From positions 126,001-190,000 of the IMG/VR virus record IMGVR_UViG_3300025162_000016: a DNA stretch of 64,000 nucleotides; one strand, 5' to 3'. Shown here piece after piece: positions 1 to 63,046 of this stretch (position 1 is the first letter of the stretch; each line of letters starts with the position of its first letter). The notes under the pieces were generated by a model. It had not been told where the DNA came from. It ran no database searches and saw only the letters and a list, made by a program, of their open reading frames with translations. The DNA comes from a virus. A program made the translations under genes and the position numbers.

Positions 1-2
1 GT

Positions 3-2570: not shown

Positions 2571-2573
2571 AAT

Positions 2574-5500: not shown

Positions 5501-8500
5501 CATTCAAGTTGATACTATCGCTGCTAATACTTCACAATTTAGACTACTTAAAGATAATGTTCTTAAATGGGCAATATATTCTCCCGCTGGTTCAAATGAT
5601 TTAAGATTTTATGATGCTGCGGATAGAGTTACAATTCAAAGTGGCGGCAATGTTGGTATCGGCACTACTACACCCGAAGCATTATTAACGTTGTCCAAAG
5701 ATGCGGATATTGCCATCCGATTTAACACGACATCCGCCGTCACAGTTGCACGTAATTGGGCAATAGATGCATCAAGACTCGCTTATGGTGATTTAGCGGT
5801 AATGCAATCAACCGCTCTCGGAGGTGATCCCCTAGCAGCAGGAACTGCTAGAATGTATTTTGATTATTCAGGCTATGTCGGTATCGGGACGACGAGTCCG
5901 GAATCTTTGTTACATATATCCGGAGGAGCAGTAGATATATCTCCCGGCGCAAATGGTAATTATAATGAAGGCATACGTATTCATCCTGCTAATAATGATT
6001 ATTCAACTATTGTAATAGGTGCGGTTTCTGGAGCAAATGGATCTGGAACCGGACAATGGAATTTTTTAAGATATCCGGCGGCAAATGGCAATATGTTTTC
6101 TATCCTACATAATGCCGCAAATGTTATGACTATGACGACAGGTAGTAATATCGGCATCGGGACGACGACACCAGTCGCTAAACTTGATGTAAACGGTACA
6201 ATTAATTCCGGAACTGGTCATATATATTTATCTAGGAACCTTACTGATTTATCGGCTCGTCGAAACTGGGGATTTGTAACTGAACAAGACACTGTTGGTG
6301 ATTTTAGTATTAGGGAAAGCACTTCTAATGTTAATGACCCCGCTTCTTCTAGGTTGACTATTTTAAGCGGCGGCAACGTCGGCATCGGGACGACGAGTCC
6401 AGGAGCGAAGTTGGAAGTTAATGGAAGCATTAATGCTAAAACTGCTGGTAGCAATATCATTTCTTCTACAGTATCAGGCACTGGTGTATATGCATCGGTT
6501 CAAACTGCCGCAGATACCGCTGGATTATACCAATGTACATTCGGTTCGACTTACGGCGGAACTCTATATGGCGGAGTTACGGGAAACAATCAAGTTGTCA
6601 GTGAAGTTCAAGGGGCAAGTAGTTATTATTTTGGAACGGTTGGTACTGCTCCGATTTATTTCGCTCCACAAAGAAGTATTGCAATGACAATATTAAATAA
6701 TGGCAACGTCGGCATAGGAACTATTTCTCCGGTAAACAGATTAGATGTAGTAGGAAATATCAGTTGTAGTGTAATCACGGCCAGTTTATTTTTTGGTACT
6801 GCATCAAGAGCAACCAATGCATTGACAGCGGCATATGTATCAAATACTGGAGTAGTAATAGATACTACCGGAATGAATGTTAATAATGCTACCACCTATG
6901 GGGTTACTGGTATTAATTTCAGTTCCGGAATAACTTATGTATCCAGTAGTGGAATTATCTTTACTTCCGGTAATAGTTACAAAGATGGCGCTGCTACCGC
7001 TTCTTTATTCGGTACGGCCAGTTGGGCACTTAATGCCAAAACCGCCAGTTATATCTCCTCTACCAATATCTCCGGTAATGTCACTGCCTTTAGTGCAAGT
7101 TGGGCCAGTTCTTCTTTAAGCTCATCCTACCCCTGGCTTACCACCGCCGACAATATTTCTTATGTCGGCGGTAACGTCGGTATCGGGGTATCTGCTTTCG
7201 GAAGTACTGCGGAAAAATTATTGGTCTCCGGAACAACTTATAACGTAATCAGTGGCGTAGGAACTCTAGATAATTATTTACAATTAAATATTAAAAATAG
7301 TAGCGCCGGTGTCGCCGCCAGTTCAGATATAGTAGCAACTAATAATACCGGCAATGAAACCGGTAATTTCGTAGACTTAGGTATTAATAGCAGCGGTTAT
7401 ACTTCCAATGTCGTCGGATTACAAAATGATGGCTATTTGTATAATACCGGTAGTAATTTCTATATCGGTAATATAACCACTGGTAAAAATCTCTACCTGT
7501 TCGCAGGTGGAACCGCCGATACCGCCTCCGTAATAATAAATTCTTCTAAAAATGTCGGCATCGGTACAATTTCCCCAGTAAATAAATTAGATGTATTCGG
7601 TAATATATCATGTAGTATAATCACCGCTTCTTTATTTTATGGTACCGCTTCCAGAGCAACTACTGCTACCACCGCATTATCAAGTTCCACTGGGGTGTCT
7701 TCTGATAGTACAGATTATAATTTAACAATGGTGGCCGGAAGTGGTAATCAACCATTACTAGCAGATACACATCCAAGTTTAGTATGGAATCCAGGAACAA
7801 CCGGAGTCGGTCTATTAAAAGTAGGTGGATTATTAAATCTTAGAGATCCTAATTCGACGACGGTTTTATATAGAGATACATATATAGAAGATGCGGGCGG
7901 TGCAATACGATTTACAACAAGCGGATCAACTTATACCACATTCGGGGTTACTGGAAATATCACTATTCCCGTAACCGCCAAATTAGTCGGAACATCCAGT
8001 TGGGCAGTAAGTGCCTCCTGGGCTCCCTCTGTAGCTGCTAGTTTATATGTCACCGGCGCAATCTATGCCTCCAGTTCTATTAGTGCATCATGGGCATCAT
8101 CGAGTTTATATTCTATTGGGGCAATCTATGCCTCCAGTTCTATTAGTGCATCATGGGCATCATCGAGTTTATATTCTATTGGGGCAATCTATGCCTCCAG
8201 TTCTATTAGTGCATCATGGGCATCATCGAGTTTATATTCTATTGGGGCAATCTATGCCTCCAGTTCTATTAGTGCATCATGGGCATCATCGAGTTTATAT
8301 TCTATTGGGGCAATCTATGCCTCCAGTTCTATTAGTGCATCATGGGCCAGTGCATCTATAAGCTCATCCTACCCTTGGCGTGCCATTGGAACAGATGTTT
8401 CTTATATGGGCGGTAATGTAGGAATTGGTACAACTACCCCAATAGGAGCAGATTCAACAAACCGAACCTTCCAAATCGGCGATCGGTTTGTAATTCAAAG

Positions 8501-43513: not shown

Positions 43514-45118
43514 ATGGCAAAAACGAAATCAACTCACGTAGAACAAGATGAAACCGCAAGTCGAGATAAGTTGGCTACTTTTCTTCAAAAGGCTCTTAAT
43601 GGCCGACAAAAGGATGGTCAAAAAGTAGCTTATTTTTTGGATGAGAAAGAAGACCCCTCCAATGTAATTGATTGGGTATCAACTGGATGCACCATGTTAG
43701 ATTTGGCTATTTGTAATAGACCAAATGCCGGTCTTCCTGCCGGGAGAATTTCTGAATTCAATGGGCTCGAATCCTGTGTCACCGAAGATACCGAAATTGC
43801 AGTAAGAATTGGCGATGATGTAAAAATCTTAAATAAGTTTAAAATTGGTGACGTAAAACCCTTGATGGAACAAGGAATCCCTGTGGCGGTTTTAACTGTA
43901 AAAGAGGAATTTGTTAAAATCACAAAATATGTAGAAAAGGGATTACTTGATACATTTGAAGTATTTACTGAATACGGAAATAGTATTAAAGTAAGCCGTG
44001 AACACCGGTTTTTTACTAATGACGGTTGGGTGGAATGTAAAGATTTGATTCCAGGAAGACACTCTATTTTTTATCGTGAAGATGGATATACAAACGCATT
44101 ATCTTTTTGGAAAGTTACAGAAATATTTCCGATAGGAAAACATAACATTGTTGATATTACGGTCGATCATCCCGATCATTGTTATTTTGGTAATGGAATG
44201 TTAAATCATAATTCCGGGAAATCTTTACTATGTGCTCACATTATTGCAGAGACGCAGAAAAAAGGTGGATTTGCAGTTATGCTTGATCCGGAATACGCTG
44301 CGGCTCCTGATTTTTGGACCGCATTGGGCGTTTCTGTGAAAGATCTTCTTTATGTACCTTGTTCCTATTTGGAAGAGATGCTTGGGCATTTGGAAGCTAT
44401 TATCGGAGAGACTAGAAAAGAAAATCCCGATCGATTAGTTACCATTATTACGGATTCAATCGCCTCGGTTCCTACAAAGAAAGAACTTGAAGCTGATTAT
44501 GATGCCGCTGGGTATGGAACCGATAAATCTAAACTGCTTTCTTTAGCAATGAGAAAACTTAATGGACTTATTGCTCGACAACGGATTTGTGCGGTATTCA
44601 CAAATCAACTTCGACAAAATCTTAAAGCAGTATCATTTGGTGACCCCTATCTGGAACCGGGAGGTATGGCATTTCGGTATGCGGCAAGTGTGCGAGTTAG
44701 AACTAAAAATGTTGGTCGAGTATCTACTAAAGAAAAAGAAGTAATTGGTAGAACTATTCAAACTCAAGTGACAAAGACTCGATTCGGCCCGTCTTTCCGA
44801 ACAGCGTCTTTTGATATCCACTATGATAGCGGTATTCAAAATCTCGCAAGTTGGTTGGATTACATGAAAGATCATGGATTGATTACCGGCACAAAAGCGG
44901 GATATACATTTAAAATGTGTGATAATCAAATTCTTAATGCGAATGAATTTGTTCGTGTCGCCAATGAACAGCCCGAATTCAAAGAAAAAGTTTATAAATC
45001 CATTTGTGATAATTATATCATGGTATATCGTCCCGCAAACTCCAAAATAGATGAATCGGTAGAGCATTTAGAAGGAGATGGCAAAGATGAAGAAAAAGTA
45101 AAAGAGACTGTCGAATAA
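43514..45118 (+). CDS. uvsX: UvsX/RecA recombinase interrupted by a mini-intein in the P-loop
   Basis: Start chosen at ATG 43514 (534 aa including intein); an earlier in-frame ATG at 43481 falls inside the terminator hairpin. The mature protein (about 388 residues) is a RecA-fold strand-exchange ATPase. Walker A reads GLES-SGKS after splicing, Walker B is VTIITDSIAS, and an FTNQLRQN segment lies in the position of the DNA-contacting L2 region. The intein splits the P-loop between the two Ser residues, so the unspliced form cannot bind ATP. It acts with gp32 and the helicase in recombination-dependent replication and repair. A Glu/Lys-rich tail ends the protein. The next gene starts 2 bp later. 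Confidence 0.9.
   Translation: MAKTKSTHVEQDETASRDKLATFLQKALNGRQKDGQKVAYFLDEKEDPSNVIDWVSTGCTMLDLAICNRPNAGLPAGRISEFNGLESCVTEDTEIAVRIGDDVKILNKFKIGDVKPLMEQGIPVAVLTVKEEFVKITKYVEKGLLDTFEVFTEYGNSIKVSREHRFFTNDGWVECKDLIPGRHSIFYREDGYTNALSFWKVTEIFPIGKHNIVDITVDHPDHCYFGNGMLNHNSGKSLLCAHIIAETQKKGGFAVMLDPEYAAAPDFWTALGVSVKDLLYVPCSYLEEMLGHLEAIIGETRKENPDRLVTIITDSIASVPTKKELEADYDAAGYGTDKSKLLSLAMRKLNGLIARQRICAVFTNQLRQNLKAVSFGDPYLEPGGMAFRYAASVRVRTKNVGRVSTKEKEVIGRTIQTQVTKTRFGPSFRTASFDIHYDSGIQNLASWLDYMKDHGLITGTKAGYTFKMCDNQILNANEFVRVANEQPEFKEKVYKSICDNYIMVYRPANSKIDESVEHLEGDGKDEEKVKETVE
43775..44212 (+). other. Mini-intein in UvsX (146 aa)
   Basis: It begins with Cys1 (CVTEDTEIAV), contains an SREH block-B motif and a VDITVDHPDHCYF block, and ends LNHN before Ser+1. 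No LAGLIDADG or HNH region is present, so it has lost, or never had, its own endonuclease. Insertion is within the ATP-binding loop. Confidence 0.92.
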
Positions 45119-46671: not shown

Positions 46672-48093
46672 GTGATATCTTCAACAGAAATACAGAATCT
46701 CAATATGGAAGAACAAGAACTTGGTAATTTAAAGGAGTTTGGAACGGAATTTCAGAATAAATGCCTTACCGCATTATTGACAAATAGAGCATTTTTGGAG
46801 CGAGTAGTAGATATGCTATCTCCGGATTTCTTTGAAACATCCGCACAGAAATGGGTGGTGGAACAAACGGTAAAATATTTTATGTTATATCGGGATATTC
46901 CTACCGCCCTGGCATTCACGGTTGAAATTAAAGCCATCGATGATCAGTTGAAACTTCTTAAACAATCGGTTGCGGATTTATTAGGTATTATATATGATCA
47001 TTCGACTGACACCGATTTAAAGTATATTGAAAATCAATTTCTTGAATTCTGTAAAAGTAGGACGCTTGCCAAAGCTATTCTCAAATCGGTTGATTTACTT
47101 AAACAGCAAGATTATGATGCTATTAAAAGCACTGTTGATACTGCATTGAAAGCGGGAATGGAACGAAATCTCGGACATGATTATATGGTGGACGTTGATA
47201 AACGAATGTCTCATGTTGCGAGGGATTGTATTAAGACGAATTGGGACTTGCTTGATCAACTTATTGATGGCGGATTGGGTAAAGGAGAACTTGGTTTTGT
47301 GGTTGCACCCGCTGGTTCTGGAAAGACATGGTTGTTATGTCGATTTGGAACTGAAGCGATGAAACAAGGAAAGAATGTTTTACATGTTACGTTAGAATTA
47401 AATGAGAATTATGTTGGTCTTCGATATGATGCTTGTTTTACTGGGTTAGGGTTTCAGACCATCCGCAATCATGTAGATGCCGTTAAAAAGGCAATCGAAA
47501 AAATCCCAGGTAAACTTTTTATTAAATATTATCCTTTGAAGACAGTTAGTCCTCAGAGTATACGACTATTTATTGATCGGTTTCAAATGTTACAGCAAAT
47601 AAAAATAGATATGTTAGTGGTTGATTATGCAGATATTCTTCGTCCATTTGTTCCAGATAAGAATGCTAACAGTTATACCGAAGCGGGGTCGGTATATGAG
47701 GAACTTCGTGCGGTTGCAGGAGAACTTCAAATTCCGGTTTGGAGTGCTTCGCAGAGCAACCGGCAAGGTCATGAAATGGATGTATTACAGGCGGGAAACG
47801 TGGCGGATTCTTATCGTAAAATAATGACGGGAGACGTTATTCTTTCGCTTTCAAGGAAAATGGAAGATAAACAACAAAATGTTGGACGTATTCATGTTAT
47901 GAAAAACCGATTTGGAGCGGATGGCATGACTTTTCCATGTAAATTCGATCCATCTAATGGTCATGTTAGTATATATGAGGAAGCTTCTGCCGATGGTATG
48001 TTGCTTAAAAAGAAAATGAAAGACGGTGAGAAAAGTATTAAGAAATTGACTAAAACGCTGTATGACTCCATGCAGGGTAGTGATTCGGATTAA
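46672..48093 (+). CDS. Replicative DNA helicase (DnaB / gp41 type)
   Basis: The 473-residue protein has a DnaB N-terminal-like helical domain (ALLTNRAFLERVVDMLSPDFF, about 33-53) and a RecA-like motor. The motor has Walker A PAGSGKT (about 213-219), Walker B MLVVDYADIL, and an arginine-finger-region KNRFGADGMTFPC. It unwinds duplex DNA as a hexamer ahead of the polymerase. The start is either GTG 46672 or ATG 46705; the longer form is listed. No ribosome site precedes either. Together with the polymerase, gp32, UvsX and RNase H it makes the T4-type replication core. No primase is visible in the window. Confidence 0.88.
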   Translation: MISSTEIQNLNMEEQELGNLKEFGTEFQNKCLTALLTNRAFLERVVDMLSPDFFETSAQKWVVEQTVKYFMLYRDIPTALAFTVEIKAIDDQLKLLKQSVADLLGIIYDHSTDTDLKYIENQFLEFCKSRTLAKAILKSVDLLKQQDYDAIKSTVDTALKAGMERNLGHDYMVDVDKRMSHVARDCIKTNWDLLDQLIDGGLGKGELGFVVAPAGSGKTWLLCRFGTEAMKQGKNVLHVTLELNENYVGLRYDACFTGLGFQTIRNHVDAVKKAIEKIPGKLFIKYYPLKTVSPQSIRLFIDRFQMLQQIKIDMLVVDYADILRPFVPDKNANSYTEAGSVYEELRAVAGELQIPVWSASQSNRQGHEMDVLQAGNVADSYRKIMTGDVILSLSRKMEDKQQNVGRIHVMKNRFGADGMTFPCKFDPSNGHVSIYEEASADGMLLKKKMKDGEKSIKKLTKTLYDSMQGSDSD

Positions 48094-48208: not shown

Positions 48209-51200
48209 ATGGAAACTCTAAAATTACAGCCACATATAGAAAAGATATTACAAGAACGGTATTATTTAAAATCCGAAAGTTCCTGGAGTCAAATGACAGA
48301 AAGGTTATCTGTTTTAGATTCTAAAATGCACGAATATATTCTCAATAGAGTTTTTATACCTAGTACTCCGACATTGATGAATCTTAATACCAAGGGAGAA
48401 AGAAATGGGACTTTGTCTTCATGTTTTATTTTGGATATTGAAGATAGCATTGAAGACATTATGAATTCCATGAAGGATACCGCTTTTGTTACAAAAGCGG
48501 CTGGAGGAGTGGGGTTTAATTTTTCAAAACTAAGAGGATCGAATGAAAATGTAAAAACCATCAGTGCTAATTCGGGGGGAGTGATGGCATTCATTCAAAT
48601 ATTCGATTCTGTATTAGATGGAATTAGACAGGGTGGTAAACGTAGAGGAGCAGGTATGTCGATGCTTTCCTGTGTTTCTGGAGAAACTTTAATTTCAACA
48701 TTAAATGGAAAAATCAAAATAAAAGATTTGGTTGGTAAATTTCCAATTGTGTATTGTACGGATTTGAAAGGAAATATAAAAATACAAAAATCCAATAAAG
48801 TGTGGAAAACCGGAAAACTAAAAACCATTAAAATTAAATTTGATAATGATTCCCATTTACAATGTACTCCAGATCATAAAATATTATTATCAAATTATAC
48901 ATATAAAAATGCTGGGGATTTAGTATTGGGAGATAGTGTTTCTGTTTTACATAAACGAATATATTTTAGAAAGGGACAACAAAAAAATAGAGCTGAATAT
49001 GTTTTAGACATAACAAAAGGAAATTCAATTAAAGAACATATTGCGGTGTCGGAATATAAATATGGGAATATTTCGAATACTATTTTAAATGATAATAATG
49101 GATTCGATGATGACTCTGAAATAATTCATCATATAGATGGAAATTCTTTAAATAATGATCCTGATAATTTAGAAAAAATGACATATAAAGGAAGAGAGAA
49201 TTTAGCAAAAATCAAAAAAGGAAAAACGTGGGAAGAATTTTATGGTATAGAAAAATCCGAAGAAATAAAAAACAAATTAAGAGAAAAAAGAAAAAATCAA
49301 ATAGTTAGGAATGCTGGTTTTTTGGGTGAAGATTATAAAAGACATTATAAAGATGGATTTAAAAATCAATTTTCTAATCATAAAGTTATTTGTATTGAAG
49401 AAGGAGATGAAATAGATGTATATGATATTTCTGTTCCGGAATACAATAATTTTGTAGCAAATGATGTTTTTGTCCATAATTGTTACCATCCCGATATTCT
49501 TCAATTTATTGATGCGAAAGTTGAGGATACTACCAAATATACCCGAAGCAATTTTTCTGTATGGGTAGATTCTGCTTTTTACAAGGTATTAAAACAAAGT
49601 CCCAACAAGGTGTTTAAAGTTCGGAATGTAGTAGATGGTCAAGAAAATGAATTAAAAGATAATTCTGGGCAACTATATACTTATAAAATGTTATGGGATA
49701 AAATTATTCATAATGCTTGGAAAAGAGCCGAGCCCGGTATTTTTAATGGAGAAATTGCGGCGGATCGTTGTACTTGTAAACACATTACTCGTAATATTTT
49801 TTCAAATCCCTGCTGTTTTGCTTCTAGTAAATCCTTATATGTAAAAACCTCAAATGGAATTAAAGAAATCAAAGAGATAACCTCTAAAGATAAAATACTT
49901 CTGCCCGATGGAGAGTTTACTGACACCTGTGGTTACTTTAATGCAGGGGTTGCAGAGGTTTATGCGGTTGCGTTTTCAACAGGAGAAATTTTTTATATCA
50001 CTCATAATCATAAGTTGGTTACGTCCATTGATAACGGCATTTATGAACTTAAAGAATTGCGTTTCCTTAAAGAAGGCGATTATGTTTTACTAGATGATGG
50101 GCAGAAAGTAAAAATAGATTCTATTCGTTTATATTCAACTGAGAATGTGGGGTGTATTACAGTTCCGGGAGTCGGATTTTTTATTACCGAAAGCGGTATT
50201 CTAAGTGGAAATTCGGAATATGTACATATTCCATATACTTCGTGTAATTTAGCATCTTTTAATCTTCATAAATTTATTAAAGATAACGAATTTGATTGGA
50301 AATCATTTGAAGTTGCCGTTGATGAATCAGTAGTGTATATGAATGGGGTTATTGATAACAATCGATATCCTATTGAAAAAATTAGAAAAGAAACTTTGAA
50401 TGTTAGACCAATCGGGTTAGGTATTATGGGATTTGCTCATTTATTATATGAATTGAGAATTCCCTTTGATTCACTTGCTGCCGCTAATTTGGCGGAAAAA
50501 ATTTGTAGGTTTCAAACATTAGTTGCTATGCGTAAAAGCGTGGAAATGGCGAAAGAATATAAGAAAAAGTATCCATATTTTGATTATGATATTTTTATGG
50601 ATGCTAGCAAACGATTCTTCGTCGAAAAAGAATTCATGGGAATTAGTGTTGAAAAATTAGCATCTGATATCAAAAAATACGGTATTTATAATAGTTGTCT
50701 TACTTCTATTGCTCCAACCGGATGTATTGAAGAAAATACACGAATTATTACAAATGCAGGACTTATAAAAATAAAAGACATTGTTGCGGAACATCCGAGA
50801 GAAAAGGAATTTAATTATAATGTTCCCGAAATGTTAGTGGCGAGTGAAGATGCCGAAAATAAACTATCTGCATTTTTTAATAATGGTGAAACCAACGGAT
50901 ATTCTATACGATTAGAAGATGGAAGACGGATTAAAACATCTTCTACTCATAGAATTCGAATTTTAAAAGATGGAAAATATTCGTGGGAATTCTCTCCTGA
51001 TATTAAGGTCGGAGATATTGTTGTTTTATCGCAAAATAGTTCGACGGAAACCAGTGAGGAACTGGAACTTGATTGTTCTAATGCGAGTAATCATTTCAAT
51101 TCTTCTGATAATATTCTCCCATCTAAATTAAACGAAAAATTTGCGGAATGGATGGGCATATTCACTGGAGATGGGAGCACGAAATTTAGATCTGAAAATG

Positions 51201-54200
51201 GGAAGATAGATGGAATCAGGTTTCCCGCAGATAGTAAGGATTATGATTTTGCCCTTTATATACAGACATTGACAAAAAATTTGTTTGGTATAGATTCTTA
51301 TATTTCCAAGGCAAAAAATAAAAATATGTATGAAATTTCCATTCATTCGATAAATATTGGAAATTTTTTAGTTAAAAATGGGTTGGCAAAAAAGGATAAT
51401 ATTTCGAGTGTGAAGGAAAAGTCCGATCATATATATCATGTTCCAGAACTTATTTTCAGATCTCCGAAGAAAGTTATTTGTGCATATTTACGGGGATTGT
51501 TTGAAACTGATGGTAGTATTTCAAACGGATCTATTACTTTTTCTTCCAAGTTTGAACATATAACACTTGAAGTCCAGGAACTTTTAACATATCTCGGCAT
51601 TCGTTCGAGTATTCGCAAATTGATAAAAGGCACGGGAGGATTTAATGATGTAATGTTTTCCCTTAGAATTGATTATAAAGCCAGTAATTTGGCATTTAGA
51701 GATAAAATAGGATTTTTAAGCGATAGAAAAAAGAAATTGTTAGCGGATTTTAAGTATACCATCGATTTCGAAAAAATTTATCTGACTTATGATGAATCTA
51801 TAAGATGTCGTTCGGAAATTAAAACTAAATTATCGTCTAAACATTCGTTGTATCAGAAATTCAATGGCAATATTTGTAGAAATCATTGCAATGATTTGGT
51901 TTGGTTTAATCGGGATATTCTGAATGAAGCACTTGAATATGTCAATTTGGATTTTCCTTTCGAATTGCATAAAATGTTTCATCTTAAAGTTGCGGATGTC
52001 GTTAGAGAAAAAATTAAAACCTTTGACATTGAAATAAATAATGAGGATCATACATATTTAACTTCGAATGGAATTATTAATCATAATACAATCTCCTATA
52101 TTGCTGATTGTTCTAGCAGCGGTGAACCAGTATTTGGTCTTGTTTTTACTCGTAAGATTGAAAAGGAAAATAAAACATATGAAAAGGTTTATTTAGTAGA
52201 TCCTGTTTTTAAGAAGTTTGTTGAAACTAATTATAAAGAAAATTCTGAGAAGATTTATGATTATGTATCCGATCATGCTGGGAGTTGTCAAGGATGTGAA
52301 TATCTTACAAAAACAGAACAAAATGTATTCAAAGTAGCGGGAGATATTACCCCAGAATGGCACCTTAAAGTTTTGGCAGCGATGGCGAATAATATTTCTC
52401 TTTCAGTTAGTAAATGTGTTGCTAAAGGAACCAAAATTTTAACAAATAAAGGAATAATAAATATAGAAGATTTAGGAGTTGCTAGGGGTGATGATAAGTT
52501 TGATCGTTCATTAGATGTGAAGGTAAAAGATATGAACGGAGATTGGAAACAAGTTACCAAACATTATTCTGGGGGAATTAAACCAACAAAAATAATACGA
52601 TTTAATAATGGAAATATAATCGAATTTGCTAATACACATAAACTATTAACAAATGATGGATGGACACCTGTTGATAACTTAAATGTTAATGATTATGTGT
52701 ATTGTAGATCATCTAAATATGAAACTAATAATGAAGGACATTTACCGATATCAACGGATTTTGAGGATAACACGAATAGTAATTTAATTTTTCTTCCAAT
52801 TAAAATGGACAGTGATTTGGCGTTATTTCTGGGAATGATAGCATCCGATGGACATTTAGTGGAAATTACGGGGAATGTCGGAATAACAACGGCGGATGAT
52901 GAGGTGGAAAAAGTTTTTTCTGAATTGTGTAAAAAAATATTTAAAGTAAAAATGGTAAATGTTCAATATGATAAGAGAACTAAAAATACTCGTTCCGTTT
53001 ATATAACATCACGGAAATTGTGTCGATATATCGTTAACTTATTAGATGGACATAATTGTATTAGTAAAAAGGTTCCTAGTCAAATAATAAACGGGTCGGA
53101 GTTGGAAAAAATAAGTTTCATAAACGGATTAACATTGGATGGATATATTGCTGGAAACAAATTGATGGTATACCAAGGATATTCTAAACATTTGGTAGAT
53201 TCTGTGTTTCAGATGTGTTGCGAACTTGGGTTAAAACCACGAAAATCGGATGCATTTGTTAAAACTGGAAGGTTATCTAATTGGACATACGGGGTTGATG
53301 TTGATTATCATTGCTTTAAACCAATTGAATTGCATAAAAACAAAATATTGGAATATTCCAATATTATACCCGTCCCGGAAAAATTAAAAAAATTATCTTA
53401 TAAGAATTTAGATAGAAAATATTATGGTTCACTTCGAACGTTGAGACGTAATAAATATAGGAGTATGAGAAGTAATAATTCTTTATTGGAATTATGTGAT
53501 TGGGATAAGAATTTATATTTGTTAAAAATTGTATCGATAGAAAATTCCTCAAATGAGGTATATGACATTGAGGTAGAGGATACTCACAATTATTTAATAG
53601 ATAATATTATATCTCACAATACAATAAATTTGCCTAAAGATTGTGAAGAAGAAGAAATTTCAAATGTTTTTATTAAAGCTCATGAATTGGGAGTTATTGG
53701 AGTCACTGTATATAGAGATGGCAGTCGAGAAGGTGTTTTAGTGCATAAGGAAGAATTAAAGGCGGAGACATATGTCCAACGTCATGATGCCCCAAAACGT
53801 CCGGAATTGCTTCCTTGTGATATTCATGAAATGGCGGTAGTTATTAATGGTAAAAAAGAACGTTTTGTTGCGTTAGTAGGCAAGTTGGCGGGAACGGTAT
53901 ATGAAATTTTTGTAACCAAAGACATTGAAAATAAGTTAGATTTTGAGAAACACAAGACCGGGTTTATTAAAAAAGTTAATAAAGGAAAATACGATTTATT
54001 AACTGTTAATGGTGAAGAAAAAATTTGTTTAGAAGATATAGGAATCATTTTTGGTGGCCAAATGGGAACGCTTTCACGGTTGGTTTCAATGAGTTTAAGG
54101 CATGGTACTCCATTACAAATAGTAGCCGATCAGTTATCAAAAGAAAATAGTGTTGGTTTTCTTGATTTTGAACGGTGTGTTGCTAGAGTATTAAAACATT

Positions 54201-54325
54201 ATATCAAAGAGGGAGAAAAAGTCATAACATCTGAAGTATGTCAACAATGTGGATCTAAATTGATTTATATAGAAGGTTGTAAGACATGTTCCAACAAAGA
54301 ATGCGGCTGGAGTAAATGTAATTAA
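48209..54325 (+). CDS. nrdJ: Class II (B12-dependent) ribonucleotide reductase with four inteins
   Basis: The 2038-residue precursor reduces to about 778 residues after removing four inteins, a normal NrdJ size. Extein landmarks include FIPSTPTLMNLNTKGERNG, LSSCFILDIEDSIEDI, AAGGVGFNFSKLRG, SCNLASFNL, SIAPTG-TISYIAD and SVSK-TINLPKD. A C-terminal TSCPD-like region (GGQMGTLSRLVSMSLRHGTP) and a Cys ribbon (CQQCG...CKTCSNKECGWSKC) follow. These match adenosylcobalamin-dependent enzymes, which need no oxygen and no second subunit. The enzyme makes deoxynucleotides for phage replication. Inteins start at 48671, 49814, 50723 and 52415, each in a conserved active-site block. It is followed by an IS607 element. 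The class call is from motifs; the splice junctions are clear. Confidence 0.92.
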   Translation: METLKLQPHIEKILQERYYLKSESSWSQMTERLSVLDSKMHEYILNRVFIPSTPTLMNLNTKGERNGTLSSCFILDIEDSIEDIMNSMKDTAFVTKAAGGVGFNFSKLRGSNENVKTISANSGGVMAFIQIFDSVLDGIRQGGKRRGAGMSMLSCVSGETLISTLNGKIKIKDLVGKFPIVYCTDLKGNIKIQKSNKVWKTGKLKTIKIKFDNDSHLQCTPDHKILLSNYTYKNAGDLVLGDSVSVLHKRIYFRKGQQKNRAEYVLDITKGNSIKEHIAVSEYKYGNISNTILNDNNGFDDDSEIIHHIDGNSLNNDPDNLEKMTYKGRENLAKIKKGKTWEEFYGIEKSEEIKNKLREKRKNQIVRNAGFLGEDYKRHYKDGFKNQFSNHKVICIEEGDEIDVYDISVPEYNNFVANDVFVHNCYHPDILQFIDAKVEDTTKYTRSNFSVWVDSAFYKVLKQSPNKVFKVRNVVDGQENELKDNSGQLYTYKMLWDKIIHNAWKRAEPGIFNGEIAADRCTCKHITRNIFSNPCCFASSKSLYVKTSNGIKEIKEITSKDKILLPDGEFTDTCGYFNAGVAEVYAVAFSTGEIFYITHNHKLVTSIDNGIYELKELRFLKEGDYVLLDDGQKVKIDSIRLYSTENVGCITVPGVGFFITESGILSGNSEYVHIPYTSCNLASFNLHKFIKDNEFDWKSFEVAVDESVVYMNGVIDNNRYPIEKIRKETLNVRPIGLGIMGFAHLLYELRIPFDSLAAANLAEKICRFQTLVAMRKSVEMAKEYKKKYPYFDYDIFMDASKRFFVEKEFMGISVEKLASDIKKYGIYNSCLTSIAPTGCIEENTRIITNAGLIKIKDIVAEHPREKEFNYNVPEMLVASEDAENKLSAFFNNGETNGYSIRLEDGRRIKTSSTHRIRILKDGKYSWEFSPDIKVGDIVVLSQNSSTETSEELELDCSNASNHFNSSDNILPSKLNEKFAEWMGIFTGDGSTKFRSENGKIDGIRFPADSKDYDFALYIQTLTKNLFGIDSYISKAKNKNMYEISIHSINIGNFLVKNGLAKKDNISSVKEKSDHIYHVPELIFRSPKKVICAYLRGLFETDGSISNGSITFSSKFEHITLEVQELLTYLGIRSSIRKLIKGTGGFNDVMFSLRIDYKASNLAFRDKIGFLSDRKKKLLADFKYTIDFEKIYLTYDESIRCRSEIKTKLSSKHSLYQKFNGNICRNHCNDLVWFNRDILNEALEYVNLDFPFELHKMFHLKVADVVREKIKTFDIEINNEDHTYLTSNGIINHNTISYIADCSSSGEPVFGLVFTRKIEKENKTYEKVYLVDPVFKKFVETNYKENSEKIYDYVSDHAGSCQGCEYLTKTEQNVFKVAGDITPEWHLKVLAAMANNISLSVSKCVAKGTKILTNKGIINIEDLGVARGDDKFDRSLDVKVKDMNGDWKQVTKHYSGGIKPTKIIRFNNGNIIEFANTHKLLTNDGWTPVDNLNVNDYVYCRSSKYETNNEGHLPISTDFEDNTNSNLIFLPIKMDSDLALFLGMIASDGHLVEITGNVGITTADDEVEKVFSELCKKIFKVKMVNVQYDKRTKNTRSVYITSRKLCRYIVNLLDGHNCISKKVPSQIINGSELEKISFINGLTLDGYIAGNKLMVYQGYSKHLVDSVFQMCCELGLKPRKSDAFVKTGRLSNWTYGVDVDYHCFKPIELHKNKILEYSNIIPVPEKLKKLSYKNLDRKYYGSLRTLRRNKYRSMRSNNSLLELCDWDKNLYLLKIVSIENSSNEVYDIEVEDTHNYLIDNIISHNTINLPKDCEEEEISNVFIKAHELGVIGVTVYRDGSREGVLVHKEELKAETYVQRHDAPKRPELLPCDIHEMAVVINGKKERFVALVGKLAGTVYEIFVTKDIENKLDFEKHKTGFIKKVNKGKYDLLTVNGEEKICLEDIGIIFGGQMGTLSRLVSMSLRHGTPLQIVADQLSKENSVGFLDFERCVARVLKHYIKEGEKVITSEVCQQCGSKLIYIEGCKTCSNKECGWSKCN
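48671..49480 (+). other. RNR intein 1 with HNH-type homing endonuclease (270 aa)
   Basis: It begins Cys1 (CVSGETLIST), has block B CTPDHKIL, and carries an HNH-like segment HHIDGNSLNNDPDNLEKMT. It ends FVHN before Cys+1 (CYHPDILQF). Insertion follows GMSMLS in the extein. Confidence 0.9.
49814..50212 (+). other. RNR intein 2, mini-intein (133 aa)
   Basis: It begins Cys1 (CFASSKSLYV) right after the extein NPC block, has THNHKL as block B, and ends ILSGN before Ser+1. The penultimate residue is Gly instead of the usual His. No endonuclease domain is present. Confidence 0.85.
50723..52087 (+). other. RNR intein 3 with LAGLIDADG endonuclease (455 aa)
   Basis: It begins Cys1 (CIEENTRIIT) after SIAPTG and ends IINHN before Thr+1. 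Two dodecapeptide motifs are visible: FAEWMGIFTGDGS and AYLRGLFETDGS. Both keep the catalytic acidic residue, so the homing enzyme looks intact. Confidence 0.9.
52415..53620 (+). other. RNR intein 4 with LAGLIDADG endonuclease (402 aa)
   Basis: It begins Cys1 (CVAKGTKILT) after SLSVSK and ends IISHN before Thr+1 (TINLPKD). LAGLIDADG-type motifs are LALFLGMIASDGH and ISFINGLTLDGY. Confidence 0.9.
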
Positions 54326-54450: not shown

Positions 54451-55047
54451 ATGATTAAATTGTCTAAATGGGCAAAACAATACGGTGTAACATATAAAAC
54501 TGCTTGGAAATGGTTCAAAGAAGGGAATTTTCCTGCCAAAACAAAACAGTTATCAACCGGAACTATATTAGTTTATGATGATGAAAATATCAAAGAGAAG
54601 GAAATTAAAACCGTAATTTATTGTAGAGTTTCAAATCACTCCAGAAAAGCAGAATTGGAATACCAAGTTCAACGATGTGAAGAGTTCTGTGTTAAAAACG
54701 GTTGGCAAATATCAAAAATATATAGAGAGATTGCCTCTGGTATGAATGATAAAAGAAAACAATTGTGGACAATGATTGATAGCAATCCAACCAGAATTGT
54801 TGTAGAGAATAAAGATAGATTGACTCGTTTTGGATTTAATTATATCGAGCAATTATCAAAGAAATTAGGAACAGAAATTATAGTAATTCATATGGATAAA
54901 GAAGATGATAAGGATTTGATAAAAGACTTGGTATCCATAATTTATTCTTTCTGTGCCAGATTGTACGGAATGAGAAAGGCGTATAATAAAACCAAGAAAA
55001 TCAAAGAAATTATAAATATGACCGATCAATTGGAAATTGTAAAATGA
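54451..55047 (+). CDS. tnpA: IS607-type serine recombinase TnpA
   Basis: The 198-residue protein has an N-terminal MerR-like helix-turn-helix (KWAKQYGVTYKTAWKWFKEG, residues 7-26) that binds element ends. A resolvase-type catalytic domain follows with nucleophile S61 in VIYCRVSNHS, an RxxE...YQ segment, ASGMNDKRKQLWTM, and the IVVENKDRLTRFGF block. It cuts both strands through a phospho-serine link and integrates with little target specificity. The last 4 bases overlap tnpB (ATGA), so translation is coupled. Full length for the family. Confidence 0.9.
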   Translation: MIKLSKWAKQYGVTYKTAWKWFKEGNFPAKTKQLSTGTILVYDDENIKEKEIKTVIYCRVSNHSRKAELEYQVQRCEEFCVKNGWQISKIYREIASGMNDKRKQLWTMIDSNPTRIVVENKDRLTRFGFNYIEQLSKKLGTEIIVIHMDKEDDKDLIKDLVSIIYSFCARLYGMRKAYNKTKKIKEIINMTDQLEIVK

Positions 55048-56345
55048 TCAAATCAAGTAAACATACAATTAAATTCTCGAACAATATAAAATTGGAGAAT
55101 TTAAACTTTATTCTTAAAGAATACCGAAGATGCTTACAGCATTTTATCGATTATTTGTGGATAACTCCTTACTCGTGGACCGATGACAAAAATATTATTC
55201 ACATGATGGATATTAAGAATAATAAGTATGATGCTCCTCAATTTGTTACGTCCAATATAATTAGTAATTCGGGATTAATTACAAATCTATCAGGAAGATT
55301 GCTCAAGTGTTGTATGACTCAGGCGATGGGAATGATTAAGGCATCGTTAGAAAAACAAAGAAAAAGAATTTATATTTTCAATAAGCATAAATTATCTGGA
55401 AAATCAAAGAAAAGTCTTAAATTATTAATCCGTAAAATTAAACAAAATATTCCACAAAAACCAAATGGTTATATTGCTAATATGGAATTAAATTCTATTT
55501 GTGCGGATTTTATGTTTACCCCGGAATCCAATGATTTTAATGGGTTTCTTCAGTTTAAATGTTTAACAACAAATAAAATCAAGATTAAAATTCCCGTAAA
55601 ATTTGACCGTCATTCTATTGGATTAATGAATAGAGGGAAGATGTTAAATTCATTTCTGGTTAAAAATAATTCAATTGATATTAGATGGGAGATTGATATC
55701 CCTAAATTGAGAGACGAAGGAAATATTATTGGATGTGATCAGGGATTGAAAACGGTGCTGACTTGTAGCAATGGAATTACAACATTATTGACTGATAATC
55801 ACGGACATTCATTAGATTCAATATTGAATACTGTGTTGAAAAAAACCCGTGGATCGAATGCATTTAAAAGAGCAAAGGATCATCAAGAAAATTTTGTTAA
55901 TTGGTCAATAAATCATTTGAATTTGGATAATATAAAGCAAATAAATTTAGAAGAAATCCGGAATATTGGATATAAAAATCGAACAAGTAAGAAACTTTCT
56001 CATTGGCAAAATACATTAATTAGAGACAAGATAGAGTCGGTGTGTGAAGATCGAGGAATTAGGTTAATTTATCAATCTTCAACTTATAGGTCTCAGAGAT
56101 GTAGTTGCTGTGGAAATGTTCGTAAATCGAATCGGAAAGGAAAAATTTATTCATGTAAACATTGTGGAAACACGATGGATGCTGATTTAAATGCAGCAAA
56201 AAACCACGAAATAAGTCTTCCCGAAATCCCGTATGATTTACGAAATCTAAATCTCAATAGAAAAGATGGGTTTATGTGGAGGGAAGATGGATTCTATGAT
56301 TTAGATGGTAGGAGTTTACAGTCCCTACTTCATAAAAAAGAATAA
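55044..56345 (+). CDS. tnpB: TnpB RNA-guided nuclease (IS607-associated)
   Basis: The 433-residue protein has a split RuvC domain with D232 (IIGCDQGLK), E303 (INLEEIRNI) and D381 (MDADLNAAKN). A zinc finger CSCCG...CKHCG lies between the last two. N-terminal WED-like and helical parts are basic. TnpB proteins cut DNA guided by an omega-RNA transcribed from the element's 3' end, helping the element persist at a site after excision. All catalytic residues are present, so it appears active. It starts inside the end of tnpA. Its guide would come from phage DNA just past the right end of the element. Confidence 0.9.
   Translation: MIKSSKHTIKFSNNIKLENLNFILKEYRRCLQHFIDYLWITPYSWTDDKNIIHMMDIKNNKYDAPQFVTSNIISNSGLITNLSGRLLKCCMTQAMGMIKASLEKQRKRIYIFNKHKLSGKSKKSLKLLIRKIKQNIPQKPNGYIANMELNSICADFMFTPESNDFNGFLQFKCLTTNKIKIKIPVKFDRHSIGLMNRGKMLNSFLVKNNSIDIRWEIDIPKLRDEGNIIGCDQGLKTVLTCSNGITTLLTDNHGHSLDSILNTVLKKTRGSNAFKRAKDHQENFVNWSINHLNLDNIKQINLEEIRNIGYKNRTSKKLSHWQNTLIRDKIESVCEDRGIRLIYQSSTYRSQRCSCCGNVRKSNRKGKIYSCKHCGNTMDADLNAAKNHEISLPEIPYDLRNLNLNRKDGFMWREDGFYDLDGRSLQSLLHKKE
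56308..56328 (+). ncRNA. Hairpin near tnpB 3' end, possible omega-RNA part
   Basis: GTAGG (56308-56312) pairs with CCTAC (56324-56328) within the last codons of tnpB. Omega-RNAs of TnpB elements overlap the tnpB 3' end and finish at the element boundary, so this hairpin is a candidate structural element. The RNA limits cannot be read. Confidence 0.3.
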
Positions 56346-58950: not shown

Positions 58951-61058
58951 GTGATAATCCAATTTATTCGGATTTTTGGTTAGAACAGGAAACCTATTCG
59001 AATTATATTGATACTAGTTCCGAAAATCCAGATGGTGCATTTTCAATTGATTTAATTCAATTGGCATCGGTTCGACGAATTATCTCGAATTACGTAGACA
59101 TTTTAACGGGGATAACTATTCCAGTTTATTTTAAGTCTGTTGGAGAAAGTTATAATATTGGTGGTAAAGAGATTTATATTACGACTGCAATTAAACGTCG
59201 CAAGGATTTCGATCAAGCGGTTGGGTTGGCTTTACATGAGGCGGCACACACGGTTCTTACTGATTTTGATTTGGCCAAAACTATTCCATTTAATACTCCA
59301 AAACTTATTTGGGATTTTTGCAAAAAGAATAATATTCGCCGGATAACGATGGAGCGATTTTTAAAAACGATGTTTAACATCGTGGAAGATTGGTACATCG
59401 ATGATTGGGTTATATCTCGGGTGCCAGGCTATATTGGATATTATGAGGAATCTTATAATGTTTGTTTTAATACCTCAGTTATTGATCAGCTTTTACTTAG
59501 CAATGATTATCGCCATCCTAGCCTTACCTCTTACGAATTTCGAATTGTTAATTTTACTAATCCTTTAACTGATTTGATGTCCTTGCCGGGACTTGAAGAT
59601 ATAGCAAAAACAATTAATATATCTTCGATTTCTCGGTTAACTAACACCTCACAACGCATTGCCGTATCGTTCAAGGTGGTTGAAATCGTGCTTAAAAATT
59701 TACAATTGTATCACGATAAGTCGATCCCAACACCGTCTCCCAGTTCTCAAAATAAGCGGATAGATGTCAATTCTTTCTTTAAAGATACTCGACCGAATGC
59801 AAATGAGAAGAAAAATAAAGAAAAAAGCGATTCAGATAGAACAATGCAAGATATTGCGAATGCATTGGCTCAACGCCCCAAAGATATTGATGATGAAAAC
59901 AAATCGGCAACATCTCAGACAAGTAAATCTGCGGATAAAGAACTTCCAAAAGAAGTTAAACAGTCCGTGGACAAACAAATTCATTACGTTCATGGAAATA
60001 CCTCTAAGCAGGAACTTGGCGATTTACAGAAAAAGATGTTGGATTTGATTGAAAAACACGGTATTGAACTCGTATATGTACCAGTAACAATGTCGGGGAA
60101 CGATGCTACACTTCGGATCGGCTGCGTAGTTGTAAAAAAACTTACTATGGAGTTGATTGAAGCCGGGAAGGAAGTTTTCCCCATGGTTAATGCTTGGAAA
60201 GATGGAGATGGCAATATTAGACCTGATAACGCAATGGCGGAGGCGGTGCAAAAAGGAATTTTGTTGGGAAATAAATTGGGTCGGAAACTGATTATTCGTA
60301 GAGAATCCAATCGAAATAAAGAAATTCGAAAACGTTATGGGAAAATTAATAAACGATTAATTTATTCGGCTGGATTTGATTCGGAAGATATTTTTGAGAA
60401 AATAAATATCTCTAAATATTCCAAAGGAAGTTTACATATTACCGTTGATGCCAGTACATCAATGGTCGGTAAAAAATGGAATGATACAATAACGATGTGT
60501 GTGGCTGTTTGTAAAGCAACCTCCATGGTGGATAACATTCATGTCACCGTTTCTTTTCGTGCCACTAAAACGGTTAGTGGAGTAGAGATGCCTTATGTAG
60601 TTCAGGCATATGATTCTCAAGTAGATAAATTTTCCAAAGTAAAAAATTTGTTTCAATATCTTTGTCCCTGTGGATGCACTCCGGAGGGGCTGGCTTTTCA
60701 TGCAATAATGAATTTGTTTACAAAGGCGGCACCCGATGAGGAAGATAGATATTTTCTTAATATCTCTGATGGCGAACCTTATTTTGCTATGAAATCTCCG
60801 TTAACAGGTCAAATTTTCAATTATGGGGATGAAAACGGAGTAGAACATACCAAAAATCAAGTAAATAAAATCCGTAGGCAAGGAATACATATACTTAGTT
60901 ATTATATTCAAGATGAAACATGTAATAGTTGGATCGGGGATGGTCATAACACCAAAAAGAACTTTCAACTCATGTATGGACGGGATGCTAGATTTTTAGA
61001 TATAAACAGTGTCACTGCATTAGCAACATCAATCAACGAACTTTTTTTGAAAGAGTAA
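58947..61058 (+). CDS. VWA-domain protein with HExxH motif, partner of the AAA+ ATPase
   Basis: The 703-residue protein overlaps the ATPase stop (ATGA). The N-terminal part contains VGLALHEAAHTVLTDFDL, an HExxH zinc-site motif (H97, E98, H101). A charged linker (Ser/Lys/Asp-rich, about 255-335) separates it from the C-terminal VWA domain with a MIDAS site D501-A-S503-T-S505 and a NISDGEPY loop. CobT and related VWA partners of CobS/MoxR have this linker-VWA plan. The HExxH motif suggests a metallopeptidase-like fold, as in some predicted metallopeptidase/VWA fusions. Together with the ATPase it could load metal or dismantle a host complex. Function is inferred from domain pairing. Confidence 0.75.
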   Translation: MSDNPIYSDFWLEQETYSNYIDTSSENPDGAFSIDLIQLASVRRIISNYVDILTGITIPVYFKSVGESYNIGGKEIYITTAIKRRKDFDQAVGLALHEAAHTVLTDFDLAKTIPFNTPKLIWDFCKKNNIRRITMERFLKTMFNIVEDWYIDDWVISRVPGYIGYYEESYNVCFNTSVIDQLLLSNDYRHPSLTSYEFRIVNFTNPLTDLMSLPGLEDIAKTINISSISRLTNTSQRIAVSFKVVEIVLKNLQLYHDKSIPTPSPSSQNKRIDVNSFFKDTRPNANEKKNKEKSDSDRTMQDIANALAQRPKDIDDENKSATSQTSKSADKELPKEVKQSVDKQIHYVHGNTSKQELGDLQKKMLDLIEKHGIELVYVPVTMSGNDATLRIGCVVVKKLTMELIEAGKEVFPMVNAWKDGDGNIRPDNAMAEAVQKGILLGNKLGRKLIIRRESNRNKEIRKRYGKINKRLIYSAGFDSEDIFEKINISKYSKGSLHITVDASTSMVGKKWNDTITMCVAVCKATSMVDNIHVTVSFRATKTVSGVEMPYVVQAYDSQVDKFSKVKNLFQYLCPCGCTPEGLAFHAIMNLFTKAAPDEEDRYFLNISDGEPYFAMKSPLTGQIFNYGDENGVEHTKNQVNKIRRQGIHILSYYIQDETCNSWIGDGHNTKKNFQLMYGRDARFLDINSVTALATSINELFLKE

Positions 61059-61067
61059 AAAAAAGTG

Positions 61068-61096
61068 TTGACATTTTATAGGGTCTGTGATATTGT
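61068..61096 (+). promoter_or_regulatory. Sigma-70-like promoter
   Basis: TTGACA (61068-61073), 17 bases, TATTGT (61091-61096). The predicted start lies about 23 bases before the ATG at 61126. Confidence 0.65.
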
Positions 61097-61125
61097 TAGT
61101 TTGATAATTATAAACCGTAAAAATT

Positions 61126-61491
61126 ATGAATAAAAATAAAGAAAGAAAAAACACGACAAGTCTTAATGTAAACTGGCCAAAGACGCCGTATTTTACAATT
61201 GAAGACGTATTTGCAGCAAATAAGAATGCAAAACCTATTACTTTACGAGTTCGCCTTACTAAGGAAATTGAAAATGGTAGAGCTGGGGAAATCGGTTATA
61301 TAACTGGCCTTCAAGGAAGACCTCGGAAGGTATTTGCGTTTACGCCTATTTCTCAGGTAATGTTAGATTCCACTAAATCACGGCAAATTATTTTGGTTGA
61401 AGAGAACCGTCTCGCTAAATTGAAAATTGCGCCGATGGTTGCTGCTTTTGTACCAAAACCGACGGTTAAATCGGAACTGTTGCCAGTATAA
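61126..61491 (+). CDS. Small beta-rich protein, unknown
   Basis: The 121-residue product begins with a Lys/Asn-rich tail. It continues with short strands (YFTIEDVFAANKNAKPITLR, GEIGYITGLQGRPRKVFAFTPI), a basic RQIILVEENRLAKLK and a hydrophobic end. The GEIGYITG...KVFAF pattern resembles small barrel folds that bind nucleic acid, but no family can be named. It has its own promoter and starts a run of small early-type genes. Confidence 0.6.
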   Translation: MNKNKERKNTTSLNVNWPKTPYFTIEDVFAANKNAKPITLRVRLTKEIENGRAGEIGYITGLQGRPRKVFAFTPISQVMLDSTKSRQIILVEENRLAKLKIAPMVAAFVPKPTVKSELLPV

Positions 61492-61521
61492 GAATTATTA
61501 TATCACCCCGCCATATACCAT

Positions 61522-61728
61522 ATGCCCGTTAAAAAAAGAAAAAATCCTAAAAAAGGAATGTCTATTCGGGTGTATGGTATATGGTCGAAGAAAAAAAATA
61601 AAATGATTTATACCAATCTATCAAAAGAAGATACTGAATTGGAATATGATATGGAAGGTTATAACGAATCTGCCCACATCATTGTTTGTTTGGATGCCCT
61701 ATATGATATTAGTAGTTTGGGACTTTAA
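61522..61728 (+). CDS. Small basic protein, unknown
   Basis: The 68-residue product starts MPVKKRKNPKKGMSIRVYG, then a KNKMIYTNLSKEDTELEYDM hairpin and a helix ESAHIIVCLDALYDISS. Basic start with beta-beta-alpha form. Its 3' end overlaps the 3' end of the opposite-strand gene by 20 bp. It lies 30 bp after the previous gene. Function unknown. Confidence 0.55.
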   Translation: MPVKKRKNPKKGMSIRVYGIWSKKKNKMIYTNLSKEDTELEYDMEGYNESAHIIVCLDALYDISSLGL

Positions 61729-62032
61729 TATCAACCGCCTTGCCCGTAAGTGGAGTTCCAATTTTTTTTATCTCACCGTTCCCTTGCATGCGATAAACAT
61801 ATAAAGTAATTATTTTTTCTAAGTATGAGGAGCCATCGTTTTGATCTATGAGTGCGGAAAATAATTTTGGATTTTTAAAATTCCCTCGAACTGTTCCTTT
61901 TGATGCATAAATAATGGGATCTCCCCAATCGGAATCATATAATACTGCGTCCTTTCCAAGGAATACTAAATTAAACATAGTTCCATGAATGAAATCTTTT
62001 TTGGATGGATTTAATACTCGTTCTTTAAGCAT
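61709..62032 (-). CDS. Small protein on minus strand, unknown
   Basis: Start chosen at ATG 62032 because TATTTATA stands 3 bases upstream on the same strand (62043-62036); a longer start at 62065 adds 11 hydrophobic residues that lie over the motif. The 107-residue protein is beta-rich: LVFLGKDAVLYDSDWGDPII, ASKGTVRGNFKNPKLFSALI, then a YLEKIITLYVYRMQGNGEI segment. It converges with the 61522 gene, overlapping by 20 bp. No family recognised. The correctly oriented upstream motif is good support for expression. Confidence 0.6.
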   Translation of the reverse strand: MLKERVLNPSKKDFIHGTMFNLVFLGKDAVLYDSDWGDPIIYASKGTVRGNFKNPKLFSALIDQNDGSSYLEKIITLYVYRMQGNGEIKKIGTPLTGKAVDIKVPNY

Positions 62033-62035
62033 GTC

Positions 62036-62043
62036 TATAAATA
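62036..62043 (-). promoter_or_regulatory. TATTTATA motif for the minus-strand gene
   Basis: On the minus strand the octamer ends 3 bases before the ATG at 62032, mirroring its placement at plus-strand genes. It is strong evidence that the motif is directional and start-linked. Confidence 0.5.
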
Positions 62044-62072
62044 GAATAAAATGAACAAAAAACATATAAAAG

Positions 62073-62101
62073 TTGACGTTTTAATGTAAATGTGATATAG
62101 T
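62073..62101 (+). promoter_or_regulatory. Sigma-70-like promoter
   Basis: TTGACG (62073-62078), 17 bases, TATAGT (62096-62101). It drives the run 62135-63711. A 13-codon frame at 62110-62151 begins almost at the predicted transcript start and overlaps the 62135 gene. Confidence 0.6.
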
Positions 62102-62134
62102 TAGTAAATATGAACCAAATACAAAATATACAAT

Positions 62135-62305
62135 ATGGGGAGAACATTTAGAAAAAATGATTTTAGGCGTCCTAAAAAGGACAGGTCCGGTAATAAGAGT
62201 CGTAAACTTCGAGAGTACGAGGGAGAAAAGTTTAAATTTAGACCTCCGTCTAATCAAGATTCATTAGAAGTTCCAGAACCACCGGAATTTTCGGATGAAC
62301 CGTAA
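62135..62305 (+). CDS. 56-aa basic protein, unknown
   Basis: The product reads MGRTFRKNDFRRPKKDRSGN, then KSRKLREYEGEKFKFRPPSN and an acidic Pro-rich tail. It is strongly Arg/Lys-rich at the start and likely disordered or nucleic-acid binding. The next gene begins 2 bp after its stop, which supports it as the first gene of this small operon. There is no recognised family. Confidence 0.6.
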   Translation: MGRTFRKNDFRRPKKDRSGNKSRKLREYEGEKFKFRPPSNQDSLEVPEPPEFSDEP

Positions 62306-62307
62306 AT

Positions 62308-62595
62308 ATGGTTGTTGAATTATTTCTTACTATTAGTTTTATATCTATCATGGTTGTAGGTTATCTTCTGTGGGCATATCAACAGCGGTTTGAAAATTTA
62401 GTGGGGGATCATACTGCTTTGAAAGCAAAGGTTCGAGAGGGTGAACGTGCCATTGTAGAGAATTTTGGAATTATTGGAAAAAAGTTTACAAAGTTAGAAC
62501 ATGAAATCAAAGACGCAAAGAGAATCACTACCGGTAAAACCAAAGAAGCCGTTAAAGCCGCTACGCAACTCGAACGACGTAGAGAACTCAGCTAA
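62308..62595 (+). CDS. Small membrane protein with coiled coil
   Basis: The 95-residue product has an N-terminal transmembrane segment (ELFLTISFISIMVVGYLLW, residues 4-22) and a charged coiled-coil helix to the end (FENLVGDHTALKAKVREGER, KFTKLEHEIKDAKRI). Topology would place the helix in the cytoplasm or periplasm. Its end overlaps the possible longer start of the next gene. It could be a superinfection-exclusion, spanin-like or replication-tethering protein; nothing decides between these. Confidence 0.6.
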   Translation: MVVELFLTISFISIMVVGYLLWAYQQRFENLVGDHTALKAKVREGERAIVENFGIIGKKFTKLEHEIKDAKRITTGKTKEAVKAATQLERRRELS

Positions 62596-63046
62596 ACTCT
62601 CGTTGTTTGATCATGTGAAACATATTCGGGGTGTTCAAGCCCCGGATTATTTCAATAACCTTTCCGAAGAAAACCAGAAATCCTTTAATCATTTCATGCT
62701 TCTTCGGGCATTATCAATGGATGATGATTGTGTGGGTGAAATGGCCTTCTTATATCGTTATTTTGATAGAATACCTTCGCCACAATTTTATACTCTTTTA
62801 ATTTCATTGACCCCGAAAAACAATAGATGGGTTCCTTGGATTAAAACCAAAATTATTAAACATAGTCCAGATTTATTAAATCTGGTGTCTAAAAAGTTTG
62901 AAATCTCAAAAAGACAGGCCAATGAATATGTAAATGTGCTAGTTGCTACTAATGAAGGGTTAGAACAATTGGTTGGTTTATGTCAAGCAATGGGTCTGAA
63001 TGATAACGAAGTAGAACAGTTATTTAACAAAAAGGATTATAAGTGA
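62501..63046 (+). CDS. Clamp-loader small-subunit-like protein (gp62-like)
   Basis: The core reads LSLFDHVKHIRGVQAPDYFN, then LSEENQKSFNHFMLLRALSM, PQFYTLLISLTPKNNRWVPW and KRQANEYVNVLVATNEGLEQ. The FDH...YF...SFN.FM.. pattern and all-helical form resemble gp62-type clamp-loader subunits of T4-like phages, about 180 residues. With ATG 62501 the protein is 181 residues but overlaps the previous gene by 95 bp. A TTG at 62603, 8 bp after that gene's stop, gives a 147-residue form and may be the true start. It would work with a gp44 ATPase and gp45 clamp outside this window. The call is moderate. Confidence 0.55.
   Translation: MKSKTQRESLPVKPKKPLKPLRNSNDVENSAKLSLFDHVKHIRGVQAPDYFNNLSEENQKSFNHFMLLRALSMDDDCVGEMAFLYRYFDRIPSPQFYTLLISLTPKNNRWVPWIKTKIIKHSPDLLNLVSKKFEISKRQANEYVNVLVATNEGLEQLVGLCQAMGLNDNEVEQLFNKKDYK

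Follow-up and report, generated by a model that had tools for sequence, protein, structure and literature searches.

Introduction

Ribonucleotide reductase (RNR) genes interrupted by inteins are known from bacteria and phages, and a bacterial precedent has been published: the RNR of Trichodesmium is reported to carry four inteins in one gene (Liu 2003). In phages, RNR inteins were described in 2013 as few; among 128 phage genomes with an RNR, 16 then had a split RNR gene of any kind, nrdJ in two cases, and two inteins were present in the nrdA of one Campylobacter phage. The NrdJ-1 split intein, with native exteins NPC and SEI, is ultra-fast (PMC13123727). The gp51 RDF intein of mycobacteriophage Bethlehem, a class 1 intein with Gly as its penultimate residue, splices completely, and changing this Gly to His slows splicing; in some inteins, a block F His can stand in for the penultimate His (PMC5050341).

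Here, we analyzed a window of 64,000 nucleotides (positions 126,001 to 190,000 of the 368,758-base IMG/VR virus record IMGVR_UViG_3300025162_000016), in which one gene for a class II RNR (nrdJ) contains four inteins. With its four inteins in a single RNR gene it resembles the Trichodesmium gene, which is bacterial and also contains group II introns. The NrdA inteins of Campylobacter phages PC14, IBB_35 and CP220 likewise lie in the large subunit of a phage RNR, and the PC14 insertion site (APTA/T, a slash marking the splice junction) is equivalent to the third site of the present gene (APTG/T). In contrast to the class II NrdJ of the window, however, these hosts are class I NrdA proteins with at most two reported inteins, and the gene is thought to be degenerating. 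An earlier note on this DNA had called the arrangement unusual, which is fair, although a four-intein RNR, phage RNR inteins and splicing inteins with penultimate Gly were all known already; the four-intein phage nrdJ is an unusually full case of an already known kind.

Results

Predicted splice map of the nrdJ precursor

The nrdJ open reading frame and the blocks into which it is divided are as follows (window coordinates).

48209..54325, + strand: nrdJ precursor ORF (class II ribonucleotide reductase, four inteins), 2038 aa
48209..48670, + strand: extein 1, 154 aa, with the SSC cysteine motif and the RRGAGMSMLS motif
48671..49480, + strand: intein 1, 270 aa (aa 155-424), Hint plus HNH_3, MLS/C...VHN/CYHPD
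49481..49813, + strand: extein 2, 111 aa, ending in the thiyl-radical cysteine motif NPC
49814..50212, + strand: intein 2, 133 aa (aa 536-668), mini-intein without endonuclease, NPC/C...SGN/SEY
50213..50722, + strand: extein 3, 170 aa, SEYVHIPYTSC...APTG
50723..52087, + strand: intein 3, 455 aa (aa 839-1293), Hint plus LAGLIDADG, APTG/C...NHN/TIS
52088..52414, + strand: extein 4, 109 aa, C-terminal end SLSVSK
52415..53620, + strand: intein 4, 402 aa (aa 1403-1804), Hint plus LAGLIDADG, SVSK/C...SHN/TINLP
53621..54322, + strand: extein 5, 234 aa, cysteine-rich C-terminal tail CxxC...CxxC...CGWSKC

Removal of the four inserts in silico takes out 1260 of the 2038 residues (61.8%) and leaves a NrdJ of 778 aa. 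The junction map of the ORF thereby reproduces exactly the intein sizes of 270, 133, 455 and 402 aa, the 778-aa remainder and the removed share of 62% given in the earlier note. All four insertion sites lie in conserved RNR motifs (RRGAGMSMLS/xHPDI, NPC/SE, APTG/TIS and SVSK/TINLP), the second lying directly after the thiyl cysteine. With inserts in catalytic motifs, imprecise loss would break NrdJ, while the target sites stay conserved.

The spliced product was compared with RNR profiles. The adenosylcobalamin-dependent NrdJ_Z profile (TIGR02504) matches the spliced protein in one piece with 499.9 bits, compared to 397.1 bits in five pieces for the unspliced ORF, which is below the cut-off of 399.95. 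Similarly, PF02867 scores 295.6 bits, spread over three stretches, before splicing and 384 bits after it, where the match becomes continuous from 1 to 523 and covers all 523 positions. The best solved relative is the Thermotoga maritima NrdJ (1xje), to which the active-site motifs were aligned; the spliced protein keeps the SSC cysteine, N-P-C-S-E, the SCN cysteine and the C-terminal cysteine tail. On the profile score above cut-off and the retained active-site residues, we identify the predicted 778-aa protein as a class II ribonucleotide reductase, NrdJ. A search of the 368,758-base record found no second class I or class II large subunit and no NrdD.

Splicing and endonuclease domains of the inteins

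All four inserts begin with Cys1, end in Asn and have a His in block B; the +1 residues are Cys, Ser, Thr and Thr for inteins 1 to 4. The block B Thr is present in inteins 1 and 2 and is replaced by Ser in intein 3 and Ala in intein 4. Inteins 1, 3 and 4 score above the cut-off of the Pfam family Intein_splicing (PF14890) and have a penultimate His. As read from the sequence previously, intein 1 carries an HNH-like domain (HNH_3, PF13392; 26.9 bits, cut-off 24.8); a close relative is the intein that interrupts the papain-like protease gene of this genome (30% over 318 columns, E 3e-16). The LAGLIDADG assignment of the other two is likewise borne out: intein 3 matches LAGLIDADG_3 (PF14528) with 69.7 bits at a cut-off of 22.5, while intein 4 lies slightly below it (21.7 bits). 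The acidic residues are kept in both motifs of intein 3 (FTGDG, FETDG) and of intein 4 (IASDG, LTLDG), and the nearest match of intein 4 among inteins of the same genome is a LAGLIDADG-bearing TerL intein (E 1e-17). Presumably, inteins 1, 3 and 4 encode homing endonucleases.

Intein 2 has, as first read, no endonuclease domain by Pfam and a penultimate Gly (GILSGN/S, i.e. Ser-Gly-Asn/Ser); in addition, its block F has no His. It keeps Cys1, the block B motif THNH, the terminal Asn and the +1 Ser. Its Intein_splicing match is under the cut-off (22 bits, E 1.6e-4) and an NCBIfam search did not recognise it; its Hint identity instead came from a profile comparison with other mini-inteins, which gave a score of 55 (E 2.8e-9), whereas 30 shuffles reached at most 20.7. 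Searching the PDB with intein 2 returned chance-level matches only, one of them a DnaE-type intein, and no match to NrdJ-1 at E up to 1; a single-sequence AlphaFold model was too poor for use (pLDDT 46). Phage matches of intein 2 are inteins in RNR and RecA-like genes, the PC14 NrdA intein being among the best (30%). Class 3 splicing, considered for its block F Cys, was rejected: Trp-Cys-Thr is absent (Leu at B12, Cys at F4, Ser at G5) and Cys1 is present.

Intein 2 shares its insertion site and +1 Ser with NrdJ-1, but is contiguous rather than split and has SGN at its C-terminus. With the Bethlehem gp51 RDF intein it shares the penultimate Gly, and both are phage inteins of class 1; unlike intein 2, the gp51 intein contains an endonuclease, has been demonstrated to splice and does not lie in an RNR (PMC5050341). 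Its origin would be either reduction of an intein or transfer by flanking recombination. Both His residues that may assist Asn cyclisation are missing, and its splicing is the least certain of the proposed steps.

Empty alleles and selection

A 32-kb viral contig (L041) encodes a NrdJ with 88.2% amino acid identity in which all four sites are empty, its DNA running in frame across each of the four junctions with no base gained or lost. Since L041 is empty at all four exact junctions, chance is excluded. A second NrdJ (L004; 59% identity), with the same gene neighborhood and a DnaB-like helicase upstream, also has four empty sites, and precise empty sites occur in other phage NrdJs, too. In the more distant NrdJ of L043 (about 50%), two inteins interrupt the same region at other, nearby points (QGG/SRRGA and NP/CSE).

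The exteins, compared with L041, are under purifying selection (dN 0.071, dS 1.05, the latter being near saturation). With regard to the direction of change, we infer gain of the inteins, which may have inserted after the window and L041 diverged. At the intein 1 +1 Cys, three relatives have Ile; mature NrdJ therefore bears a Cys that the intein requires and that is absent from those relatives. The +1 codons differ from L041 by two bases at site 1 (Ile to Cys) and three at site 2 (AGT to TCG), which is at most suggestive because such changes are found in 60 of 779 codons. Looking for co-conversion, we saw no clear drop in extein identity to L041 near the insertion sites.

Regarding the frequency of interrupted genes, a NrdJ profile search of contigs kept the best-scoring 80 loci, and among these matches, taken as listed, most spans are of uninterrupted-gene length owing to that selection; the search is no census of interrupted genes. 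Across a 146-genome sample from one phylum, NrdJ exceeded the cut-off in 69, with one match in an ORF of more than 1000 aa (G009), where a LAGLIDADG intein sits at the first active-site cysteine.

Proposed splicing of the precursor and alternative explanations

Taken from sequence comparisons, the reading we consider very probable is a phage NrdJ gene in which four independent class 1 inteins splice in cis. Translation would yield the entire 2038-aa chain, with each intein folding as a Hint domain. Cys1 of each intein would attack the upstream peptide bond, the chain would be transferred to the +1 Cys, Ser, Thr or Thr (inteins 1 to 4), and cyclisation of the terminal Asn would allow the exteins to join into the 778-aa NrdJ. 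The endonucleases of inteins 1, 3 and 4 could copy their inteins into alleles that lack them, L041 being one example.

Some RNRs contain large insertions, and the earlier note had allowed that the removed blocks might be native domains; if so, these domains, or lineage-specific insertions, would be retained in the enzyme. The alignment, in which L041 and L004 are empty at all four sites, rules this out, and together with the empty sites of other phage NrdJs, the intein profile matches and the disruption of catalytic motifs it leaves the idea with a practically negligible probability: the in-frame joins of the empty L041 allele identify the inserts as mobile elements. Slightly more credible, but still very improbable, is that the intein-filled gene is an assembly chimera, as could arise in a metagenome-derived record. 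Against this, a single continuous frame crosses all eight splice junctions, and a second contig (L005; 102,940 bp) is 100% identical over 17.3 kb, although possible shared reads make it not fully independent.

The alternative deserving more weight, though unlikely, concerns intein 2, which might be decayed and splice poorly or not at all while inteins 1, 3 and 4 splice, leaving RNR inactive or scarce. Its penultimate Gly, its block F without His and its weak profile score are in line with such decay, as is the description of Campylobacter phage nrd genes as degenerating under inteins. However, the frame is open through all 2038 aa, intein 2 retains the residues listed above, and complete splicing with slower splicing after Gly-to-His exchange is on record for a phage intein (PMC5050341). 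Purifying selection on the exteins also speaks against decay, though the divergence from L041 may predate the insertions. Moreover, N-P-C and S-E of the catalytic loop lie on opposite sides of intein 2, and without its splicing the phage would lose the single RNR that the search of the record found. We retain the reading of four cis-splicing inteins, which provides a well-documented phage case of four inteins with three endonuclease states in one essential-looking gene with close empty alleles; with this combination, the gain and co-occurrence of inteins and the order of their splicing can be tested directly. Mini-inteins ending in Gly-Asn are, furthermore, compact candidate protein-splicing tools.

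Inteins in the rest of the genome

The record has an exact direct terminal repeat of 7,102 bases (1-7102 and 361657-368758; L033, L034) and is classed as linear; given this repeat, the genome is probably complete, with a length of about 361.7 kb. It contains approximately 15 inteins in nine genes, about eleven of them in eight genes other than nrdJ, where junctions were read by eye without empty-allele comparison. While nrdJ has four, TerL has three and the portal gene two; one each is found in the genes for the prohead protease, UvsX/RecA, a radical-SAM protein, two glycosyltransferases and a papain-like protease.

Window 43775..44212, + strand: 146-aa mini-intein in the Walker A motif of a UvsX/RecA-like gene, GLES/C...NHN/SGKS
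Record 924-1826, 60560-66703, 67039-68829, 71667-72119, 195574-196500, 212046-213218 and 216421-217560: approximately ten inteins outside the window (papain-like protease, TerL, portal, prohead protease, radical-SAM, glycosyltransferases)

Many inteins outside the window also lie in catalytic motifs, e.g. Walker B of TerL and CxxxCxxC of the radical-SAM protein. In TerL (record 60560-62963, L035), a short N-terminal intein piece is followed by a free-standing DUF7487 (PF24308) gene and a C-terminal intein piece; one TerL intein is apparently split and the TerL gene fractured. DUF7487 proteins also adjoin other intein genes of the record, and DUF7487 may be an endonuclease family. The third TerL intein (record 64274-65650) ends in Gln instead of Asn (GHQ/T). 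Three inteins, namely nrdJ intein 2, that of the prohead protease and the split TerL intein, are without both the penultimate and the block F His.

Matches to one and the same intein profile amount to 16 stretches in this record, at a looser threshold than for other phages and with one being the terminal-repeat copy, compared to nine in Salicola phage SCTP-2 (440 kb), seven in a 484-kb phage and zero to three in other unrelated phages. SCTP-2 gp204 has an intein at the position of the UvsX/RecA mini-intein, directly before SGKS. The crAss-like Zeta and Jug phages (PMC7886860, PMC12363816) resemble the window phage in being large and rich in mobile inserts, but introns dominate there and at most three inteins per crAss-like genome have been reported, compared with approximately 15 here. 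We regard this load, set against the phages named here, as more surprising than the four-intein nrdJ itself, and it bears on whether phage inteins are tolerated parasites or regulators. Tentatively, and with rather less than even confidence, we suggest a lineage with inteins across many core genes, exceeding any phage that we found reported, in which three inteins splice without both His residues by a variant Asn cyclisation.

In the window, a serine recombinase and a TnpB-like gene just 3' of nrdJ (54451-56345) form an IS607-like element (Resolvase and Cas12f1-like_TNB domains). The nrdJ of L041 directly adjoins the next shared gene without this element, which therefore probably inserted in the window. 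Upstream of nrdJ, two apparent split inteins interrupt the DnaB-like helicase gene of L004 (3565-7860), and free-standing ORFs lie between their halves; the helicase of the window (46672-48093), in contrast, is intein-free.
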